The translations under genes and the position numbers were made by a program. Shown here piece after piece: positions 8,059 to 20,587 of a stretch of DNA of 50,460 bases. The stretch spans positions 1 through 50,460 of the forward strand of contig JADFAK010000153.1 of NCBI GenBank assembly GCA_015665315.1. The letters run 5' to 3'. The notes below the pieces were generated by a model. That model was not told where the DNA came from and did not search any database. It saw nothing but the letters and a program-made list of their open reading frames with translations. The stretch is from Flavobacteriales bacterium (GTDB taxonomy: Bacteria; Bacteroidota; Bacteroidia; Flavobacteriales_D; Sanyastnellaceae). Position 1 is the stretch's first letter; every line of letters starts with the position of its first letter.

Positions 8059-9630
8059 ATGAATAGACTCCTTCTTTTCATAGGACTTTGTGCAAGTATG
8101 AATTTCATTGGCCAAACCAATGGATTCAACTTGCGTTTGTCCTATGGTTTAAGCACGTCTTATTCGAATGTTTGGGAACAGGATTCGACTTACATTGTAA
8201 CAGGATTTGCGTCAGACACGGTCGATGGGTTTCTTTATATTCGATTGTTAGAGACTACATTAACTCGTGATGGCGCTGTCGTCAATCATAAATTCATAGG
8301 AAACCAAAATGTAAACTTGTCCTTCGGATTCAATGCAAGTGATAGACTAAGTGAGGATAAAGTTGTACTCGCAGGTCCTGTCTCCATAGACGGTGTTTCG
8401 CTTGGATTGGTCTTTCAGTTGGATAACCTGGGGGATACTTTGTCATCATTCACATTTTCCTCCCCGTCCTTCACAGGTGACCCTGATAGCTTTTCCAACT
8501 GGCTGAAACCCCTTAGTTTAAGTATGGGAATTGACGGTACAATATATGTAGCTTGTCAAATTGCTAGTGAAGAAACCGGCAATGACTTTGCGGTGTTTTC
8601 TTTTTCGCTTGATGGTCAAAAAAATTGGTGCTTTGTCTCTGCGACGAATCTCTATAACACGTGCCGAGATGTAGAAGCGGAAGATGATGGGGTGTGGGTG
8701 TCAGTCTCTTCACTCGATTTAGATACAGAATGGGGTGATCTTCAGTCTTTTTTTAAAATTGACATGAGCGGCAACGTTGTTTCAGAAGTACACCTACAAC
8801 AATCAAATCATAATATTTGCCTTGAGATGAAGATTGTCGACGACGGAATAGTTGGCATCACGAGCTATGAAGACGGATCTAATTTTAATACTGTTCCGGT
8901 TATTTTCAAGGTTAATTTCAGTGGAGATTATATTTGGTCGTCTCCATATCCAACCACGTATGAAAATGGCCAAGCTTTCCGAGATTTAGTAAGATGTGAA
9001 GATGGAAGTGGATTTGTTGTTGTGGGAGAAATATTCGATCCATCTCCAGATAACCCTGATCTAGATGGTAATTATAATTGGTTTGGTTTATTGGCCAAGT
9101 ACTCCAATGAAGGAGAAGCAATATGGGCTCGACAGTACTTCATCCTTCAAAGTATCCATGACGACCACGAAGTAATTGACTTAAGTGTTACGTCTGACGG
9201 AGGCTATATTTTCTGTGGAGAAACTACAGATTATGATAACCAAAATCCGGACATAATCCACCCTCGTCAACAAGGCTGGGTAGTAAAAGTCGACGGATGC
9301 GGCTGTCTTGTCCCCGATTGCGATCCCAACTGCACGACCAAGGAAGAAGAGGAAGGGGTGTTTATAGATTCAGACCAGCAATTTGTAGTCGGCCCGGTGC
9401 CGGCAGACTGGTTCATCAATGTACACGTGCTCAATGACGAATACCTTGATTCCAGGCGTATTGAAATTCATAATTTACTCGGTCAGCAAGTGCTTTCTTA
9501 CGCCACTCCTACTGGCCAAGCTACCTATATGATTGACACGCAGTCGCTGTCGTCAGGGATTTACATTGTGAGTATGACTGAGCATGGAAGAGTTGTGCAG
9601 AGTGAGAAGGTTGAGGTGAGGAAGTTGTGA
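8059..9630 (+). CDS. Secreted repeat protein with T9SS sorting domain, cassette copy 1
   Basis: The 523-residue protein starts with a signal peptide (MNRLLLFIGLCASMNFIGQT). The bulk resembles beta-propeller-like blocks (SDGGYIFCGETTD, DGSGFVVVGEI, DDGIVGITSYED) typical of large secreted Bacteroidota proteins without known enzymatic activity. A Cys-rich hinge (KVDGCGCLVPDCDPNCTT) and an acidic linker precede the last 90 residues, a T9SS type A sorting domain (VVGPVPADWFINVHV ... SLSSGIYIVSMTEHG). Copy 2 shares its first 50 or so residues and its last 115 closely, whereas the middle has diverged. A surface or secreted role is likely; no ligand can be named. Confidence 0.85.
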   Translation: MNRLLLFIGLCASMNFIGQTNGFNLRLSYGLSTSYSNVWEQDSTYIVTGFASDTVDGFLYIRLLETTLTRDGAVVNHKFIGNQNVNLSFGFNASDRLSEDKVVLAGPVSIDGVSLGLVFQLDNLGDTLSSFTFSSPSFTGDPDSFSNWLKPLSLSMGIDGTIYVACQIASEETGNDFAVFSFSLDGQKNWCFVSATNLYNTCRDVEAEDDGVWVSVSSLDLDTEWGDLQSFFKIDMSGNVVSEVHLQQSNHNICLEMKIVDDGIVGITSYEDGSNFNTVPVIFKVNFSGDYIWSSPYPTTYENGQAFRDLVRCEDGSGFVVVGEIFDPSPDNPDLDGNYNWFGLLAKYSNEGEAIWARQYFILQSIHDDHEVIDLSVTSDGGYIFCGETTDYDNQNPDIIHPRQQGWVVKVDGCGCLVPDCDPNCTTKEEEEGVFIDSDQQFVVGPVPADWFINVHVLNDEYLDSRRIEIHNLLGQQVLSYATPTGQATYMIDTQSLSSGIYIVSMTEHGRVVQSEKVEVRKL

Positions 9631-10151: not shown

Positions 10152-11726
10152 ATGAGGCCCGTACTTCTACTTCTTGGCTTTATTGCAAGTTTGAATTTCA
10201 TTGGACAAACCAATGGATTCAACTTGCGTTTGGCTTATGGATTGAGCACGTCTTATTCTAATGTCTGGGAACAGGATTCGACGTATATGTTGACTGCTTT
10301 TGCAGCAGATACCGTCGATGGTTTGCTTTTCATTAGATTATTAACAACTGCACTGGACGATCAAGGGGGGGTGCTGTTCAATAAATATTTAGGAGACCAA
10401 GATAAAAGTTTATCTTTTTTTGAAGATGCCAATGGATTTATGGATCAAGATCATGTGCTAATAGCAGGCCGATATATGAAGGAAGGAGTCATGAACGGAC
10501 TTGTGTTGGTATTGGACAATGAAGGTGACACAATCTCATCAATTTCTGTTCCGTCTCCTTCGTACAATGGAGACCCTGATGATTTTTCCAATTGGATGTC
10601 ACCAACAAGTCTTAGCGTTGCATCGGATGCGCTTTTTTACGTTGCAAGTCAGATAGCAAATGCCGATACGGGAAATGACTTTGTTGTTTTTTCCTTTTCA
10701 TCCAGTGGTCAAATGAACTGGCATTACGATTTCATATCCGAAAGTGGCTATGACATTTGCAGAGACATTGAAGCTGTAGCTGATGGGGTTTGGGTTTTAG
10801 CATTTTCATCCGTTCCCGATTCACAATGGGGACTTATTCAATCCTGTTTTAAATTGGATTTGGAGGGAGAAGTAACAACTACTATTTCCATTGTACCAGC
10901 CAACCATAATATTTACTCTGACTTTGAAATTGTAGAAGATGGAATTGTAGTAGTTGGGAGTATGGATAATGTAGATGAAAATGCAACAATTCCAATAATA
11001 TTCAAAGTTGATTTTGAGGGAAACTATCTTTGGATCAGTACTCTATCCAAGCCGTATGAGCCTCAACAAGAGTATATAAACCTTGTCAAGTGTGTAGATG
11101 AAAGTGGATTCGTGGCCGTTGGAGAAATAACTGAAATATCTCCAGAAAACCCTGAGCTAAATGGCAATTACAATTGGAGTGGGGTATTGGCAAAATACTC
11201 GAACGAAGGAGAAGTATCATGGGTCCGAGAATATTTCATCCTACAAAGCATCCACGATGATCATAGTGTTGCAGATCTAAAGGCCACATCGGACGGAGGC
11301 TATATTTTTTGTGGAGAGTCAACAGGTATAGATAGCCAGAATCCAGGTGCAAACGAACCAATTCAACAAGGCTGGGTAGTAAAAGTCGACGGCTGCGGCT
11401 GCCTTGTACCCGATTGCGATCCCAACTGTACGACCAAGGAAGAAGAGGAAGGGGTGTTTATAGATTCAGACCAGCAATTTGTAGTCGGCCCGGTGCCGGC
11501 CGATTGGTTCATCAATGTACACGTGCTCAATGACGAATACCTTGATTCTCGGCGTATTGAAATTTACAATTTACTCGGTCAGCAAGTGCTTTCTTACTCC
11601 ACTCCAACTGGGCAAGCTACCTATATGATTGACACGCAGTCGCTGTCGTCAGGGATTTACATTGTGAGTATGACTGAGCATGGAAGAGTTGTGCAGAGTG
11701 AGAAGGTGGAGGTGAGGAAGTTGTGA
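10152..11726 (+). CDS. Secreted repeat protein with T9SS sorting domain, cassette copy 2
   Basis: The 524-residue paralogue of copy 1 has the same architecture: signal peptide (MRPVLLLLGFIASLNFIGQT), propeller-like body, Cys-rich hinge, acidic linker and T9SS type A domain. The C-terminal 115 residues differ from copy 1 at only a few positions (for example H/Y in the EI-x-NLLGQQ segment). The central 350 residues share the framework (SDGGYIFCGES) but many residues and indels differ. This contrast fits recent exchange at the ends with retained or selected variety in the middle. ATG 10152 lies at the same distance from the leader as in copy 1. Confidence 0.85.
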   Translation: MRPVLLLLGFIASLNFIGQTNGFNLRLAYGLSTSYSNVWEQDSTYMLTAFAADTVDGLLFIRLLTTALDDQGGVLFNKYLGDQDKSLSFFEDANGFMDQDHVLIAGRYMKEGVMNGLVLVLDNEGDTISSISVPSPSYNGDPDDFSNWMSPTSLSVASDALFYVASQIANADTGNDFVVFSFSSSGQMNWHYDFISESGYDICRDIEAVADGVWVLAFSSVPDSQWGLIQSCFKLDLEGEVTTTISIVPANHNIYSDFEIVEDGIVVVGSMDNVDENATIPIIFKVDFEGNYLWISTLSKPYEPQQEYINLVKCVDESGFVAVGEITEISPENPELNGNYNWSGVLAKYSNEGEVSWVREYFILQSIHDDHSVADLKATSDGGYIFCGESTGIDSQNPGANEPIQQGWVVKVDGCGCLVPDCDPNCTTKEEEEGVFIDSDQQFVVGPVPADWFINVHVLNDEYLDSRRIEIYNLLGQQVLSYSTPTGQATYMIDTQSLSSGIYIVSMTEHGRVVQSEKVEVRKL

Positions 11727-13191: not shown

Positions 13192-13626
13192 ATGATCCAA
13201 ACGGATCGCGCAACAAGCTTGTTGAGCACCTTGATTTTGAAAACCAAACTCCTTAAAGAGTGGATTGGCATGACACATGCCACCGCCTTTCTAATGCTTG
13301 CATTGGTAGTACCCTCTAGTCTGGGCGCTACCTTTGCCGTGTTGTTGAATGACTCTTTTGCAGACAATCAACCAAGTACTATTCACCAGCATTCCCACGA
13401 TGCAGGGATTTCCAATTTCCATCCTTCTAATGATCTTGCCTGTTCGATTTTATTATCGGAACAACTGGAAAATGAAGAAGATGAAGTAAGTCTGCACGAG
13501 AAAATTAGTCTCGGTTACAGCGAATTTATCGGGAACATTAGTTCCCAAGAAATGGCCTTGCGTTCGCAAATTGCCATTCAGCGAAAGAGGTATATCCTTT
13601 TTCATTGCCTCAAAATTCCTTCATAG
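13192..13626 (+). CDS. Small membrane-anchored or exported protein, His-containing, upstream of dabA
   Basis: The 144-residue product is not recognised. One hydrophobic segment (about residues 30-52, THATAFLMLALVVPSSLGAT) could be a membrane anchor or an uncleaved signal. It is followed by a His-bearing stretch (STIHQHSHDAGISNFH) that might bind metal, an acidic region (ENEEDEVSLHEKI) and a basic tail. It sits 150 bp before the SulP-DabA fusion in the same direction, downstream of a promoter-like pair. The coding call rests on the promoter, the ATG position and the hydrophobic segment, so it is moderate. A link to the zinc-dependent DabA next door is only a guess. Confidence 0.5.
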   Translation: MIQTDRATSLLSTLILKTKLLKEWIGMTHATAFLMLALVVPSSLGATFAVLLNDSFADNQPSTIHQHSHDAGISNFHPSNDLACSILLSEQLENEEDEVSLHEKISLGYSEFIGNISSQEMALRSQIAIQRKRYILFHCLKIPS

Positions 13627-13777: not shown

Positions 13778-16700
13778 ATGCAGGAAGATAAAAAAATGAG
13801 TGCCCAGCCAAAGGATTGGTTAGAGGGACTCAAGGAGAATTTCGGGGCCGATATGACTTCTGGTTTCATCGTGTTCTTATTGGCTTTGCCTTTGAGTTTG
13901 GGTATAGCATCAGCCTCACAATTCCCACCAGTGATGGGAGTTTTGTCGGCGATAATAGGTGGTCTATTGGCTACTTTTTTGACGGGTTCAAAACTAGCCA
14001 TCAAAGGACCAGCAGCAGGTTTGATTGTGATCGTAGCAGGCGCCGTTACCGAATTTGGTGGAGGTATTATCGGTTGGCAACTTACCCTTGGCGTTATGGT
14101 CGTAGCCGGCCTCGTGCAAATCCTCTTTGGAGTAGTCAAATGGGGAAAACTGGTCGATATATTTCCTTTGGCCGCTGTACATGGTATGTTGGCCGCTATT
14201 GGTTTGATCATCATAGCCAAACAGGTTCCAGTTTTGCTCAACGTCGATCCTAGTTTGGCCGCAGGAAAAGGGCCATTGGGACTCTTCGCCGCAATCCCTG
14301 AATTTATTGGAAATATGGACAAGCAGGTGAGCATTATTGGCGGAGTGAGTTTGGCAATTATGATGGGCTGGAAGCTCGTCAAACAAAAGCACCTCAAGAA
14401 GATTCCTGCTCCTCTGCTCGTATTAATCTTCGCAATTCCTGCAGGGATGTACATGAACCTTGGCCAAAGTGCCCCGAGTCATACCTTGCTTAAAGTGGGC
14501 AATATTGCTGAGCAGATTGGTATCAACGTGAGTTTCGCAGGCTTGTCGATGGTAGGTACCTTCATCAAGTACGTTGTGATGGTGGCTTTGGTAGGTAGTC
14601 TTGAAAGTTTACTGACCGTTAAAGCCATTGACCTATTGGATCCGTTCAAACGAAAAAGCGATCCAAATAAAGACATGATAGCAGTGGGAGTCGCCAATAC
14701 GGTTGCTGCAGTTCTTGGTGGCTTGCCTATGATTTCTGAAGTAGCCAGAAGTTCGGCCAACGTCGCTCAAGGGGGAAAAACGCGTTGGGCAAATTTTTGG
14801 CACGGATTGTTCCTATTAATCTTTGCTTTGTTTGCCTATCCACTCTTGGAAATGATTCCAAATGCCGCTCTAGCAGCGATGCTCATAGCCGTGGGGATCA
14901 ATCTAGCACACCCCAAAGAATTCATCCACACCTACAAAATTGGATCTGAACAACTGGCCATTTTTATCACGACCATCTTCTTTACACTTTTTGAAGATTT
15001 GCTTATCGGTATTGCGGCTGGTATGGTGCTCAAAATGATCATCCACTTAACTAGAGGTGCTTCTATTCGCGGATTGTTTAAATCTGATATTGAAGTTCAG
15101 GATAGTGGAAATACGATAGATGTGTTTATTCACGACTCGGCTGTTTTTACCAATTACTTGTCGATAAAAGCCAAGTTTGAGGCACTCCCAGAAGGACGTA
15201 CGATCAACGTTCACTTTGAAGATGCCATCCTAGTCGACCACTCGGTGATGGAGAATCTACACCATTTCAAAGATGACTACGAAGGGCTGGGAGGTCAGGT
15301 GATATTTATTGATTCGGAATCTATGGAGTCCGTGTCCGACCATCCGCTGGCGGCTATGAAGAAGATAGACAGTTTGACCAGACCAAAGCCTATTCGCGAT
15401 GGATCGTTTGACGAGGAAAAATCACTTCACCAACTCCGTCACTACTTGCCAGGTCAGGCTGCATTAAAGGACTTTGTACACCACAACTCCTTGCATGCTT
15501 ACCAAGATATGGAGTTCTTCGAAGCTATTTTCAGCGCTTCGAAAACATTTGGAATTCAAGTTACATTCAATCTAAATGAATACAGAAAGCTTCACGACCA
15601 AGGGCGTATTTCTTCCCAAATACTTGATAGAGTTATCGTAGAAACCAAAGGCAAGGAACACCATGCTGAATATTTGCATTCATTGCTTAAAAAAACATAT
15701 AAGCATACCTACGCACCTAGGATAGGCCGACTAAGAGACCAATGGAAAGAGCAGTATCACGTGAATATGGACGATAGGGTACAACCTCGACTTTTTCGAA
15801 TTATTGGAGCTTATCTGGACCAAGGGATTGCGCTCGATCATTTTCCTGAAACAGATCAAGGATTACTTCGGGCCATTCGATTGCTAGAAGAGAAGAGTTT
15901 TACCAGTTTTTTCAGAAGCAAAAGAGTCAAGGACCTGTTGTCAAACAAGGATGTTTCTTTGAAAGACCTGCTGATGATTGTTGTGGGAAATGAGGCCTAT
16001 TTTGAGCAGTATATTTTGGACCAACAATTTGCGCATAAGGGCTGGAGTGGCATTATTACGGCTATAGAAAGGCAGCCGGATACATTGTTGTATCAAAAAT
16101 CGATTGACCTACGCGATTTTATCATGCTCGAGCTTCTCTTGGAGATTGATGTTATGGACAGTAGGTTCGGTAAAAACTGGGGTGGATTGGCCCTTGGATG
16201 TGAAGTTGAACCAATGGATTATTTCGCTCCTGTTCAAGTGGGCGAACTGCAAGAGGTGCTCAAATTGTGGCAACTCGCTTTTGAATGGCAATACTACGAT
16301 GAGGTGCTTGGTGCTTTGTCTGAAGTGTCTCAAGATAAAAAAGAGCCGAAGTATAAGAAAAAGAGTTTCCAAGCGATGTTTTGCATCGATGACCGCGAGG
16401 ATTCGATTCGACGTCACTTTGAATATGCCGACAAGAATTGTGAGACGATTGGGGCTCCGGGATATTTTGGTGTGGCGATCCAGTTTCAGGCTTTGGACAG
16501 TCAGTTCTACGAAAAGAATTGTCCCGTTCCAGTAACTCCTCACCATTTAATAAAAGAGGTCTCGCGAAAAAACAAACATGCAGTAGAATATCTTCACGGG
16601 AAACATTCGCATTCGATTTTGAAAGGAATTTTGTCTACGCTCCCATTGGGAATTTGGGCCGCGATCAAATCCATAAAAGATGTGATAAACCCCACCATGC

Positions 16701-17920
16701 GTCCTGACATTGCCGATGCGTATGGTCACATGGACATTGAAGGGCAACTGAAGATCGAAGCCGATAAGAATCCGCAGGTGGAAAACGGCTTGCAGATTGG
16801 TTATACCGTCGATGAGATGGTGAAGGTCGTACATGGCCTTTTGATCAATCATGGAATGACAGGGAATATGGCCAACCTCGTGTACATTATCGCGCACGGC
16901 AGCAGTAGCGCCAATAATCCCCATCACGGAGCTCATGACTGCGGTGCTTGTAGCGGGCGCCCTGGAGGAGTCAACGCCAGAGTATTTGCCTTTATGGCTA
17001 ATCATTTAGAGGTTAGAAAGAAATTGGCAGCGCTCGGTTTGGAAATCAAAGACAGTACTTATTTCCTTGGTGGAATGCATGATACAGCGAGCGATGAGAT
17101 TCGATTTTACGATGTGGATTTATTGGATGATAAGCATGCTGCAGAACACCAAAAGAACCTCAAGGCTATTGAAAAGGCTCTGGACCTGAATGCCATGGAG
17201 CGTGCACGAAGATTTGCCTCGATCAATATTCACCGTCCGATTGAACAAGTGCGCAAGCGAATCAAAGAGCGATCGGTATCCTATGCAGAGCCCCGTCCAG
17301 AGCTAGGTCATGGAACCAATGCCCTTTGTTTTGTGGGTGCTAGAGACAGCGTGAGTAATTTGTTTTTAGACCGACGGGCATTTCACCAGACCTATGATTA
17401 CAAACAGGATCCTACTGGTGAGATTTTGAAGTCGGTACTCGGACCACTCCCCGTCGTATGTGGTGGTATCAATTTGGAGTACTATTTCTCCCGTATGGAT
17501 ATCGAAAAGATGGGAGCGGGAACCAAGCTGCCGCATCACGTCATGGGACTTTATGGAGTGACCAATAGTGCAGATGGCGATTTAAGACCTGGACTTCCAC
17601 TTCAAATGATCGAAAACCACGATCCTGTGCGCCTTTTGATGATTATTGAGCAGACTCCAAAGGCGGTGCTAAACGTTTTAAGTGAGACTCCAGAAAACCG
17701 GGCATGGTACGATAAAGGATGGATTCACTTGGTGGTTCTTTCACCTGAAGACGATCAGCTTTATCGATATGAAGAAGGAAAATTCGTGTCGTATATGCCT
17801 CTGACAGAAGTCAAGCGTAGCGAGGATATCCTTCATACGATCAGCGCGGCCAAGGAGATGGTGAGCAACCACATATTGGATGCAACCAAGGAAAATATCC
17901 CAGTACAAATTTACAATTAA
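13778..17920 (+). CDS. dabA: SulP transporter fused to DabA (DUF2309) CO2 hydratase subunit
   Basis: The 1,380-residue protein is about the sum of two proteins. Residues 1-420 are a SulP transporter (NFGADMTSGFIVFLLALPLS, GPAAGLIVIVAGAV). Residues 435-535 are a STAS domain (INVHFEDAILVDHSVMENL). From about 545 (HQLRHYLPGQAALKDFVHHN) to the end is a full DabA/DUF2309 domain. DabA is the beta-carbonic-anhydrase-like subunit of DAB inorganic-carbon pumps. The zinc ligands known from Halothiobacillus DabA (C351, D353, H524, C539) correspond here to C869 and D871 in FCIDDRED, H1040 in IAHGSSS and C1055 in HDCGAC, with matching spacing. ATG 13778 is preferred; ATG 13796 is possible, and the frame-opening TTG 13736 is unlikely. 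The frame is continuous through the junction. dabB follows after 8 bp. Confidence 0.92.
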   Translation: MQEDKKMSAQPKDWLEGLKENFGADMTSGFIVFLLALPLSLGIASASQFPPVMGVLSAIIGGLLATFLTGSKLAIKGPAAGLIVIVAGAVTEFGGGIIGWQLTLGVMVVAGLVQILFGVVKWGKLVDIFPLAAVHGMLAAIGLIIIAKQVPVLLNVDPSLAAGKGPLGLFAAIPEFIGNMDKQVSIIGGVSLAIMMGWKLVKQKHLKKIPAPLLVLIFAIPAGMYMNLGQSAPSHTLLKVGNIAEQIGINVSFAGLSMVGTFIKYVVMVALVGSLESLLTVKAIDLLDPFKRKSDPNKDMIAVGVANTVAAVLGGLPMISEVARSSANVAQGGKTRWANFWHGLFLLIFALFAYPLLEMIPNAALAAMLIAVGINLAHPKEFIHTYKIGSEQLAIFITTIFFTLFEDLLIGIAAGMVLKMIIHLTRGASIRGLFKSDIEVQDSGNTIDVFIHDSAVFTNYLSIKAKFEALPEGRTINVHFEDAILVDHSVMENLHHFKDDYEGLGGQVIFIDSESMESVSDHPLAAMKKIDSLTRPKPIRDGSFDEEKSLHQLRHYLPGQAALKDFVHHNSLHAYQDMEFFEAIFSASKTFGIQVTFNLNEYRKLHDQGRISSQILDRVIVETKGKEHHAEYLHSLLKKTYKHTYAPRIGRLRDQWKEQYHVNMDDRVQPRLFRIIGAYLDQGIALDHFPETDQGLLRAIRLLEEKSFTSFFRSKRVKDLLSNKDVSLKDLLMIVVGNEAYFEQYILDQQFAHKGWSGIITAIERQPDTLLYQKSIDLRDFIMLELLLEIDVMDSRFGKNWGGLALGCEVEPMDYFAPVQVGELQEVLKLWQLAFEWQYYDEVLGALSEVSQDKKEPKYKKKSFQAMFCIDDREDSIRRHFEYADKNCETIGAPGYFGVAIQFQALDSQFYEKNCPVPVTPHHLIKEVSRKNKHAVEYLHGKHSHSILKGILSTLPLGIWAAIKSIKDVINPTMRPDIADAYGHMDIEGQLKIEADKNPQVENGLQIGYTVDEMVKVVHGLLINHGMTGNMANLVYIIAHGSSSANNPHHGAHDCGACSGRPGGVNARVFAFMANHLEVRKKLAALGLEIKDSTYFLGGMHDTASDEIRFYDVDLLDDKHAAEHQKNLKAIEKALDLNAMERARRFASINIHRPIEQVRKRIKERSVSYAEPRPELGHGTNALCFVGARDSVSNLFLDRRAFHQTYDYKQDPTGEILKSVLGPLPVVCGGINLEYYFSRMDIEKMGAGTKLPHHVMGLYGVTNSADGDLRPGLPLQMIENHDPVRLLMIIEQTPKAVLNVLSETPENRAWYDKGWIHLVVLSPEDDQLYRYEEGKFVSYMPLTEVKRSEDILHTISAAKEMVSNHILDATKENIPVQIYN

Positions 17921-17928
17921 GAGAAATC

Positions 17929-19800
17929 ATGCAATATATACTTCCCCTAATTTTAATAATACCTCTTATCTCATTGCTCATTATCCAGTTTTTCAATCAC
18001 AAGGATGAAAAAGCTATTTATTGGACAGCGGCATTGGGAAACATCGTGACTATGATCACGCTCACGGGCATTACGGTCATGTGGTTAATTGACACTTTTC
18101 CGACCATGATCTACCAAGGTCCTGTGCTGTACCAATCCAAAGAAGCGGAATTTGGCATAAACCTATTCATGGATGTCTACAGTTACATCTACATTTTTGT
18201 GACTACGGCTATTACTGCGATTATTATTCGTTTTAGTCGGACCTATGTCCACCGGGAACGAGGGTACAAGCGTTATTTCAGCAATGTTTTATTCTTCTAT
18301 TTAGGGCTTTTGACTATCCTCTTGGCGGGTAACCTTGAAATCTTGTTTGTCGGCTGGGAGATCTTAGGAGTCACCTCCTTTTTCTTGATCGGATTTTATC
18401 GAGAGAGATATTTACCTGTGAAAAATGCCATAAAAGTAGTGTCACTTTACCGTGTGGCAGATATAGCTTTGCTTTTGGGTATTTGGATCTGTCACCATTA
18501 CTTCGGACACAGTATTCATTTCGACAGTCTAGAAGGTATGCAGGGCGGATCGCAAGATCATATCTTGAATGAGACTTTCTACCAATTCATGATTCCGTCC
18601 GTGTTTTTATTGGCGGCAATGGTGAAATCAGCTCAATTTCCCTTTTCATCATGGGTTCCACGAGCTATGGAAGGGCCTACGACTTCCTCGGCAATTTTTT
18701 ACGGATCGCTGTCGATTCACATAGGCGTCTACCTGCTTATCCGCACTGCGCCATTGTGGGAGGATAACATAGTTATGCATGTAATTATCGCTGGAATTGG
18801 CCTAATCACGACAATAGTTGCGTCTCTTATTGGACGAGTACAACCTTCCATCAAGGTTCAAATTGGTTATTCCTCGATAGCGCAAATTGGTATCATGTTT
18901 ATCTGGGTTTCTCTGGGTTGGTACACATTAGCTATGGTGCATTTCGCGGCCAATGCTTTTATGAGAGCTTACCAATTACTCGTGTCTCCGTCCATTTTGA
19001 GTTATCGAATTCATGATTTGTTTTATCATTTCGAAAAGCCTGTTTTTTCGCAGACCAATAAATTCAAGGACCGCTTGTATGCTACGGTTTATGTCGCCGG
19101 AATCAAGGAGTTTGGATTGGATGAATTGATGTTCAGGTATCTCTGGTCTCCTTTGAAAAAGGCAGGAAACTTCTTCAAATTCATGGAGATTAGGGCGACC
19201 TATACCATCGCTTTACCTTTCTTTTTTATGGGTTTGTATGGCGTGTACCATCAGGAATTAATTCCGCCCATCGTTCTCAAATATCTCCCTGAGTTTTTCG
19301 CTGCATTGGGCATGATCTTCGTTTTGAAAGCTTTTGTCGAGCGAAAAAGTGCTTTGAATGCCTGGGTGCTAATTATGGTGAACCAATTGTTTCAATCCTT
19401 GACTTTCGGCTTCAATGACGAGTTTGACTATACACAAGTACACATCTTCCTATCTGGGATTTTGATCAGCACCGTAGTGGGCGTATACGTGATCAACAAA
19501 CTGAGAAGAAACAAGGAAAATGTAAGTCTGAATGCATTCCACGGCCATTCTTACCAACATCCACGTCTAGCATTTTTATTCGTAGTCGCATGCTTAGGAC
19601 TCGCTGGATTCCCGATTACGCCAACCTTTATTGGTGAAGATCAAATGCTCGGACATATCCATGAGAATCAGTTTCCATTACTCGCTCTAATTGTCCTGAA
19701 TATCATTTTGGACGGACTGGTCATTTTCAGGATCTATTCGCGGCTATTTCTCGGTCAGCACAAAAAAGGCTACCATGAAGTTGCATATCGTTCATCTTAA
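17929..19800 (+). CDS. dabB: DabB, NuoL/MrpA-like membrane subunit of the inorganic-carbon pump
   Basis: The 623-residue protein has a proton-antiporter M domain with about 14 membrane segments. The key charged residues of NuoL-type subunits are kept: E144 in GWEILG and K233 in KSAQFPFSSWVP. In DAB complexes this subunit couples cation flow to the CO2-hydrating DabA subunit at the cytoplasmic face. The segment after GPTTSSA reads IFYGSLSIHIGVYLLIRT, where NuoL has a His a few residues earlier; a His is present but shifted. Its position 8 bp after the SulP-DabA gene, with no other Nuo or Mrp genes, identifies it as DabB rather than a complex I subunit. Confidence 0.9.
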   Translation: MQYILPLILIIPLISLLIIQFFNHKDEKAIYWTAALGNIVTMITLTGITVMWLIDTFPTMIYQGPVLYQSKEAEFGINLFMDVYSYIYIFVTTAITAIIIRFSRTYVHRERGYKRYFSNVLFFYLGLLTILLAGNLEILFVGWEILGVTSFFLIGFYRERYLPVKNAIKVVSLYRVADIALLLGIWICHHYFGHSIHFDSLEGMQGGSQDHILNETFYQFMIPSVFLLAAMVKSAQFPFSSWVPRAMEGPTTSSAIFYGSLSIHIGVYLLIRTAPLWEDNIVMHVIIAGIGLITTIVASLIGRVQPSIKVQIGYSSIAQIGIMFIWVSLGWYTLAMVHFAANAFMRAYQLLVSPSILSYRIHDLFYHFEKPVFSQTNKFKDRLYATVYVAGIKEFGLDELMFRYLWSPLKKAGNFFKFMEIRATYTIALPFFFMGLYGVYHQELIPPIVLKYLPEFFAALGMIFVLKAFVERKSALNAWVLIMVNQLFQSLTFGFNDEFDYTQVHIFLSGILISTVVGVYVINKLRRNKENVSLNAFHGHSYQHPRLAFLFVVACLGLAGFPITPTFIGEDQMLGHIHENQFPLLALIVLNIILDGLVIFRIYSRLFLGQHKKGYHEVAYRSS

Positions 19801-19813
19801 AACACGACTGATC

Positions 19814-20587
19814 ATGAAAATGAAAATTAGTAGTGCGTTTCGATTGGCCGCAGTTGCGATCATGTTCTTGGCAATTATGAATACGACACAAGGTCAAAAG
19901 ATTGTAGCAAATCAACAACACAGTTGGTATATGATTGGGGTCTCACACAAATTCAGTTCTAAATGGGGCGCAACAACCCTGTTTGACTGGAGGAGAGAAG
20001 GGTTTGGGGTTTCCTGGCAGCAATCATTGCTCAGGTTAGGTGTAGACTTTCATGCCAACGATAATTTGATTCTTTCTACCGGCTACGATTGGCTGCAAAA
20101 TTTCCCTTACGGAGAGCAACGTGGGGCCTATGGTTTTGACGAAAATCGTGTATTTGAACAACTCGTTTTGACCCAAAAAATCAAAGGCCTTGGAATTGCA
20201 CATAGGTATCGACTTGAACAGCGTTTTTTAGAAAGAAAAAAGTTGGTCAACGATGAGTACGTTGACACAGAATCCTTGTTTCTAAACAGGATTCGTTATC
20301 GCCTGGCCCTTAGTCTCCCTGTTTGGAAGAAGGCTTCTGGCGAAGGGAAGTTGTTCATTAAAACCTCCGATGAGGTGTTTCTAAACTTCGGAAAAGGGCT
20401 TGGAATGAATCTCTTGGATCAAAACTGGTTCGTCGCAGGACTGGAGTATGCACTCATGAAAAACCTACGGCTGTTTGCGGGTTACATGAATCAATTCGTA
20501 CTGAAATCAGACGGCATTCACGAAGAAAGGAATCACACTTTGAGGATCGCGCTGAATTATAAGATGAATTGGCATCATCAGGATTAG
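19814..20587 (+). CDS. DUF2490 outer-membrane-type protein, last gene of the dab locus
   Basis: The 257-residue protein starts with a signal peptide (MKMKISSAFRLAAVAIMFLA, cut after TQGQ). It continues with alternating hydrophobic and aromatic strands (QHSWYMIGVSHKF, LRLGVDFHANDNLILSTGYDW, FAGYMNQFVLK) typical of DUF2490 beta-barrel proteins. The frame extends back to ATG 19775, inside dabB, but ATG 19814 places the signal peptide at the N-terminus. It is cotranscribed with dabAB to judge from the 13-bp gap and the terminators that follow. Function is unknown; it may be an outer-membrane component. Confidence 0.8.
   Translation: MKMKISSAFRLAAVAIMFLAIMNTTQGQKIVANQQHSWYMIGVSHKFSSKWGATTLFDWRREGFGVSWQQSLLRLGVDFHANDNLILSTGYDWLQNFPYGEQRGAYGFDENRVFEQLVLTQKIKGLGIAHRYRLEQRFLERKKLVNDEYVDTESLFLNRIRYRLALSLPVWKKASGEGKLFIKTSDEVFLNFGKGLGMNLLDQNWFVAGLEYALMKNLRLFAGYMNQFVLKSDGIHEERNHTLRIALNYKMNWHHQD

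Follow-up and report, generated by a model that had tools for sequence, protein, structure and literature searches.

A SulP transporter joined to DabA: fused version of a conserved sulP/dabA/dabB module in Bacteroidota

Does a gene that joins a SulP transporter to DabA in one reading frame reflect a true partnership of the two proteins and, if so, in what process? The locus raising this question lies at positions 13778-17920 (+) of the window, i.e. the whole stretch of 50,460 nucleotides (nt) analyzed here, from a Flavobacteriales bacterium (GenBank assembly GCA_015665315.1, contig JADFAK010000153.1). We found that the fusion is rare but conserved, and that it represents, in fused form, a sulP/dabA/dabB module that is itself conserved.

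The gene is one open frame of 1380 amino acids (aa) without a stop, and its ATG at 13778 aligns with the start of a second fusion, that of Lewinella cohaerens. Pfam places a Sulfate_transp domain at residues 23-398 (188.6 bits, cut-off 23.2) and the DabA domain PF10070 at residues 551-1316, spanning positions 2-747 of the 747 in the model (667.5 bits, curated cut-off 25). The domain search and the unbroken frame thus bear out the in-frame union of SulP and DabA that had been proposed in a sequence-only reading of this DNA. The SulP part covers approximately residues 1-529 (13778..15364, +) and is followed by a linker of about 14 aa without a stop (approximately residues 530-543; 15365..15406, +), whose boundaries, taken from junction translations, are approximate. 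The DabA part occupies approximately residues 544-1380 (15407..17920, +) and contains C869, D871, R873, H1040, C1055 and the class-typical H1178 discussed below. The beta-carbonic anhydrase domain PF00484 had no Pfam match in the fusion protein, DabA being found in its place. Where the sequence-only reading saw a full SulP with a STAS domain, the transporter domain stands, but no Pfam family matched the C-terminal SulP piece at E-values up to 10. A STAS-like end at approximately residues 438-511 is instead suggested by a linked relative, the SulP of locus L188, which matches STAS (PF01740, 33.5 bits in Pfam), and by the STAS-like order of strands and helices in a low-confidence structure prediction of the window protein. 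The NuoL-like DabB, identified by Pfam (Proton_antipo_M) and alignment, is encoded next, starting 8 nt after the fusion gene (17929..19800, +).

A scan of a genome collection returned one relative, in L. cohaerens DSM 23179 (Bacteroidota, family Lewinellaceae in the NCBI taxonomy), where the same fusion forms a single frame of 1393 aa with 65% identity over residues 1-1379. Among 199 genomes of its family grouping, four had an unbroken fusion, namely L. cohaerens itself (G664), G726, G829 and G737, the last three with full-length matches to the window's fusion at 63-65% identity and no stop. Including the window's genome, the survey of DabA proteins for an N-terminal SulP thus gave five fusions, with linkers that vary in length and composition according to the junction translations. 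No further full-length DabA in an unbroken frame of fusion length was found among 249 genomes of the window's order, 395 of its phylum and 114 family genomes, in which fragments at contig ends could not be judged; the order, phylum and two family samples share some genomes. Elsewhere, scanning viral contigs with the profile of the class gave no relative, and out of 2077 plasmid records that match the fusion protein none has a single place covering 80% of its length. A frameshift or assembly error at about 15,400, or an annotation error, could in principle have joined two genes, and in G211, G107, G812 and G811 SulP and DabA do share a frame in which one TAA is all that parts them, so that an error in a single base might produce an apparent fusion. 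We nevertheless rejected the artefact as highly improbable, since the fusion recurs unbroken in five related genomes with dissimilar linkers, among them one named culture-collection strain and one 7.5-Mb contig (G726). The junction of G715 holds two stops although a table had shown an unbroken frame, and it was not counted.

The trees allow one origin of the fusion or two. The SulP tree groups all five fused SulPs (support 0.98), whereas the DabA tree groups four of the fused DabA proteins (0.99) and pairs that of the window with the unfused L164 (0.86), its deeper nodes being weak (0.28 and 0.63). On this point the two trees disagree. In two further loci, L108 (G194) and L188 (G232), DabA and DabB are close to those of the window (56-59% and 59-63% identity, respectively), but the SulP belongs to another clade (41-44%), which indicates that the SulP-DabA partnership survived an exchange of the SulP.

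The unfused relatives show what has been fused. DabA matches were found in 65 of the 249 genomes of the order and 30 of the 395 of the phylum, and loci were fetched for 78 of the 93 genomes with a match in these two surveys. This gave 80 DabA loci from 78 genomes (set A, which excludes the loci retrieved by searching with the fusion protein), in which SulP, DabA, DabB and beta-carbonic anhydrase were located by tblastn. The remaining genomes had either incomplete or interrupted matches, in some cases at contig ends, so that a fusion may be present there (G046, G081, G161, G197, G246 and G388), or, in nine genomes of the phylum sample, full-length frames of 791-841 aa that were not residue-classified (G393, G441, G555, G574, G590, G601, G610, G618 and G634). 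Set A falls into two classes. In the 20 loci of the canonical class, dabB lies upstream of dabA in 18 and was not seen in two, a LysR-like gene (labelled by eye from sequence) is present in 17, and SulP in none. In the 60 loci of the window's class, dabB lies downstream of dabA in 59, with none seen in one, and a sulP gene is found on the same strand in 49 (43 downstream, six upstream), divergent in two and absent in nine; in seven of these nine the sequence extends less than 400 nt past the last core gene. The sulP gene adjoins dabA/dabB in 51 out of the 53 loci of this class with room for it. One of the 49 same-strand loci, L130, has a beta-carbonic anhydrase gene in between. When set A and the two family searches are combined, the class comprises 78 loci, with SulP upstream in 20, downstream in 44, divergent in three and absent in 11; dabB follows dabA in 76 and was not seen in two. 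Locus L106 (G175) carries a tandem pair of class DabA genes, followed by a single dabB and a single sulP. Identity to the window's DabA is 40.6-62.2% within its class and 25.3-32.9% for the canonical class. Outside the phylum, the loci compared were eight plasmid-borne ones; in each of them dabB precedes dabA, the residues are canonical and no SulP gene is listed.

The reference for these residues is DAB2, i.e. DabA2-DabB2 of Halothiobacillus neapolitanus (PDB 9rd0), with which the window shares PF10070, a Cys2His zinc site, an Asp-Arg dyad and a NuoL-like partner. In the alignment, C869, H1040 and C1055 of the window correspond to Cys351, His524 and Cys539 of DabA2, and D871 and R873 to its Asp353-Arg355 dyad. 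Of the four residues that the sequence-only reading had taken as zinc ligands (C869, D871, H1040 and C1055), all are present and none has been lost, being invariant in 77 aligned class DabA proteins; D871, however, is a dyad member and no ligand, as zinc in the DAB2 structure is bound by Cys, Cys, His and water (PMC13144422). Zinc ligands and dyad are kept in all 82 DabA proteins of both classes. What separates the classes is the position of Leu658 in DabA2, which is H1178 in the window and, across the 82, His in 62 and Leu in 20, with no third residue; the flanking motif aligns without gaps (PRPELGHGTNALC versus VRPEWGLAGNAAF). As the classes were initially split by this very residue, His in 77/77 class proteins is partly true by construction, and some of the 77 come from searches with the fusion protein itself. 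The split nonetheless coincides with the position of dabB in every locus where that gene was seen, as well as with the degree of identity to the window's DabA. Class locus L085, absent from the alignment of 77, also has His in its motif, while Leu is found in all eight plasmid-borne DabA proteins (Haloarcula, Rhizobium, Nitrobacter, Thiodictyon, Mycolicibacterium, Methylocystis, Pantoea and Phaeobacter). The position of Ser356 is Glu in the window and in 74 of the 77 class proteins. For that of Glu444, in the membrane-inserted finger of DAB2, the alignments disagree, giving K964 by phmmer and other residues by MAFFT, the finger of the window being shorter. At the phmmer-aligned position Lys or Arg is found in 69 of the 77, and Ser in many canonical loci by MAFFT.

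The DabB proteins of the two classes differ in a set of residues too. In NuoL numbering, to which DabB2 numbering was converted by inference from a regular offset, the class DabB proteins keep the ion-pair residues Glu144, Arg175, Asp178 and Lys229 in 59 out of 59, as well as Lys305 and His334 (59/59), while His254, His338 and Lys342 are replaced by Tyr (59), Asn (58) and Arg (58), respectively. In the canonical DabB proteins, Glu144 is lost in 18/18, its position being Ile151 in DabB2 (PMC13144422), and His254, His338 and Lys342 are kept in 18/18. Neither mark of a DAB2-type DabB, the complete proton-path set and the loss of Glu144, is thus found in the window's class. In DAB2, alanine changes at the residues taken as equivalent to the proton-path positions impaired activity (PMC13144422).

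These replacements bring in a different view of the module, in which the class DabA would be a plain, reversible enzyme of the beta-carbonic anhydrase kind, forming with SulP a metabolon that equilibrates or exports CO2 and bicarbonate, e.g. for pH balance, and in which DabB would be a regulated channel. The His at the Leu658 position speaks for it, as beta-carbonic anhydrases have Gln or His there and Leu is strict in 150 DabA2 homologues (PMC13144422), and so does a DabB that has retained its ion pairs and changed its three proton-path residues. The residue at 658 by itself decides little, though: Leu658Gln of DAB2 is still inactive in vitro, and Gly, Ala or Asn at 658 are harmless in vivo (PMC13144422), for which reason the switch marks the class but need not itself change the mechanism. 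DabB moreover stays linked throughout the class, downstream of dabA in nearly every locus. We regard the metabolon as rather unlikely.

As for the SulP part, it is related to SulPs encoded beside beta-carbonic anhydrases, and one such pair is found in the window's own genome, where a second SulP lies beside a beta-carbonic anhydrase gene (L186, 6600-8885; contig C9 of G000). Among 61 aligned SulPs linked to the module, Glu276 and Arg324 are kept in all and Glu321, which lies in a GGLPMISE motif, in 60. The motif of the SulP studied here is GGLPMISEVARSS, versus GGLPVTQVIVRSS, GGLPITSVIVRSS or GGLPMTSVVVRTT in three SulPs of the kind linked to beta-carbonic anhydrase (L186, L130 and the second SulP of L179), which have Val at 321, as does L169. 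A beta-carbonic anhydrase gene was found within the fetched stretch in nine out of the 78 class loci. Such genes lie near the module in L001 (12829-13455), L175 (12397-13020, oriented) and L130 (3075-5299, oriented). In L130 the order is sulP, beta-carbonic anhydrase, dabA and dabB in a row, although the SulP frame there is broken or cut.

Because SulP is recurrently linked to a protein resembling carbonic anhydrases, its likeliest substrate is bicarbonate, and the module most likely serves to take up bicarbonate and CO2 together. On balance we favor SulP-DabA-DabB as a membrane-bound complex for inorganic-carbon uptake, with substrate, coupling ion and direction all inferred. The cytoplasmic, STAS-like end of SulP would be tethered to DabA, a zinc protein resembling beta-carbonic anhydrases, which would in turn dock on the DabB encoded next. 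SulP would carry bicarbonate, while DabA, beside it, would hydrate CO2 that either enters by diffusion or leaks from the cell; cytoplasmic bicarbonate would be the end product of both forms of inorganic carbon. An ion gradient acting through DabB may drive or gate this process, and the DUF2490 protein encoded downstream may give the substrate a way across the outer membrane. Since no RuBisCO was found in the genomes of the window and L. cohaerens, ordinary carboxylases would be the users of this bicarbonate at times of CO2 shortage. In the fused form, the partnership of SulP and DabA would be fixed at 1:1, the other members keeping separate genes. The absence of carbon-fixation genes that the sequence-only reading noted for this genome segment extends to the genome for the RuBisCO large subunit, detected in none of the 12 genomes searched, these two included; other fixation routes were not searched. 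Its idea that SulP and a vectorial CO2 hydratase act as one machine holds in part: that the two belong together is supported by the five fusions and the adjoining genes, whereas a vectorial DabA of the DAB2 kind would be conjecture. Coupling and direction are not transferable from DAB2, as the class departs from it at Leu658 and at three proton-path residues of DabB.

Several observations weigh against uptake by such a complex. Class DabA and DabB occur without any SulP in the fetched stretch in G436 and G009, i.e. two of the 53 assessable set A loci, and in L170 and L174 outside set A. Two PF00484 matches, one of them weak, were found elsewhere in the window's genome, which is 99% complete, and the module is thus not its sole source of bicarbonate. 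The proton-path residues needed in DAB2 are changed in the class DabB, and coupling to the proton motive force may therefore be lost or different, to judge from sequence. Structure predictions from two-sequence alignments (window and L001) were unusable, with a mean pLDDT (predicted local distance difference test) of 37.3 for SulP and junction and 33.6 for DabA. Finally, the SulP substrate is not readable from sequence: the NCBIfam models for sulP, DauA and BicA, i.e. for sulfate, dicarboxylate and bicarbonate carriers, all match the window's SulP far below their cut-offs. SulP proteins are diverse in their substrates, and this one might move another anion (chloride, sulfate or a dicarboxylate), or serve as a counter-ion or pH path for a DAB-like pump, with the fusion setting only the stoichiometry; the Glu at 321, in place of Val, could likewise change the substrate. 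The carbonic-anhydrase-like nature of the SulP partner, the gene order in L130 and the other beta-carbonic anhydrase genes near the module argue the other way, and we consider transport of a different anion, or such a balancing role, unlikely.

The proposed uptake complex may be placed among systems already described. Compared with DAB2, the window's DabA is fused to SulP, the gene order is the reverse of that in the canonical loci compared, and the residues of DabA and DabB depart as given above. The arrangement resembles the 'clade C' ybcC operons of the COGNAT paper from 2017 (PMC5700660), whose available text describes a sulfate-permease gene (COG0659) as frequent near ybcC (dabA) where this precedes a nuoL homologue. 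Priority for the sulP neighborhood belongs to that paper, which leaves the function open and whose main text does not contain the words 'fusion' or 'fused'; our match to clade C rests on gene order and sulfate permease, the NuoM component of the paper not having been looked for. Neighboring or fused SulP and carbonic anhydrase genes are also known, e.g. A. ferrooxidans can2-sulP and Rv3273, and have been taken as support for bicarbonate transport by such SulPs, according to the available text of PMC6458275 (citing Felce and Saier 2004). These pairs likewise bring a SulP to a CO2-hydrating zinc enzyme, but the enzyme of the window is DabA (PF10070) with a DabB, and the SulP motif differs from those of the three SulPs compared above. 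That DabA is a separate subunit in DAB pumps, as the sequence-only reading had it, needs qualifying, given the single mpsA-mpsB gene of Acidimicrobium ferrooxidans in the available text of PMC6689103; there too a DabA-family protein is part of a fusion, the partner being a DabB homologue and not SulP. From the same text, MpsAB of Staphylococcus aureus, with which no sequence comparison was made, offers DabA and DabB homologues in a heterotroph that are needed for its growth at atmospheric CO2. The SulP-DabA fusion, which the sequence-only reading did not recall as characterized, the His at the Leu658 position and the switch in DabB had no mention in the literature searched, most subscription papers being outside its reach.

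If the complex operates as proposed, it adds a transporter as a third partner to what is, in the DAB complex of known structure, a two-subunit vectorial carbonic anhydrase, and suggests that bacteria lacking RuBisCO acquire inorganic carbon actively. With its altered catalytic and proton-path residues, the class constitutes a natural set of variants in which to test the coupling of proton flow to CO2 hydration, and the single-chain SulP-DabA is a handy construct for biochemistry. We also put forward, tentatively, a third kind of DAB machine that would extend across the envelope, combining SulP, a His-type DabA, a NuoL-like DabB whose gate can close, a porin of the DUF2490 family and a small exported protein; bicarbonate transfer would fall to SulP, and DabA would be gated in a way unlike DAB2.

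The DUF2490 gene of the window (19775..20587, +; Pfam, 146.4 bits) has a longest frame that overlaps the end of dabB, and its true start may be a little downstream. The available text of PMC4827864 describes DUF2490 as a putative porin family of unestablished function. The domain was found in 29 out of 47 assessable class loci of set A, i.e. those with SulP and either 1 kb of room or DUF2490 itself, versus none of the 20 canonical loci. In L165 (G851), a short frame between SulP and DabA ends like the C-terminus of DUF2490 and is, as judged by eye, a possible remnant.

Ahead of the operon lies a small open reading frame (13192..13626, +), with a hydrophobic N-terminus as judged by eye and a counterpart in L001 (5412-5795). 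A frame of 90-190 aa ending 50-290 nt upstream of the module was found in 54 out of the 78 class loci (71 of which have at least 700 nt ahead), and about 12 residues at its C-terminus recur: models built from half of the loci found 37 of the 54 held-out copies at E ≤ 1 and 20 at E ≤ 0.01, a recovery inflated by near-duplicate loci, as compared with eight and zero other frames, respectively, among the 713 and 680 searched. Farther upstream, the window carries two tandem paralogues (8059-9630 and 10152-11726) with nearly identical C-terminal parts, the second of which matches Por_Secre_tail.

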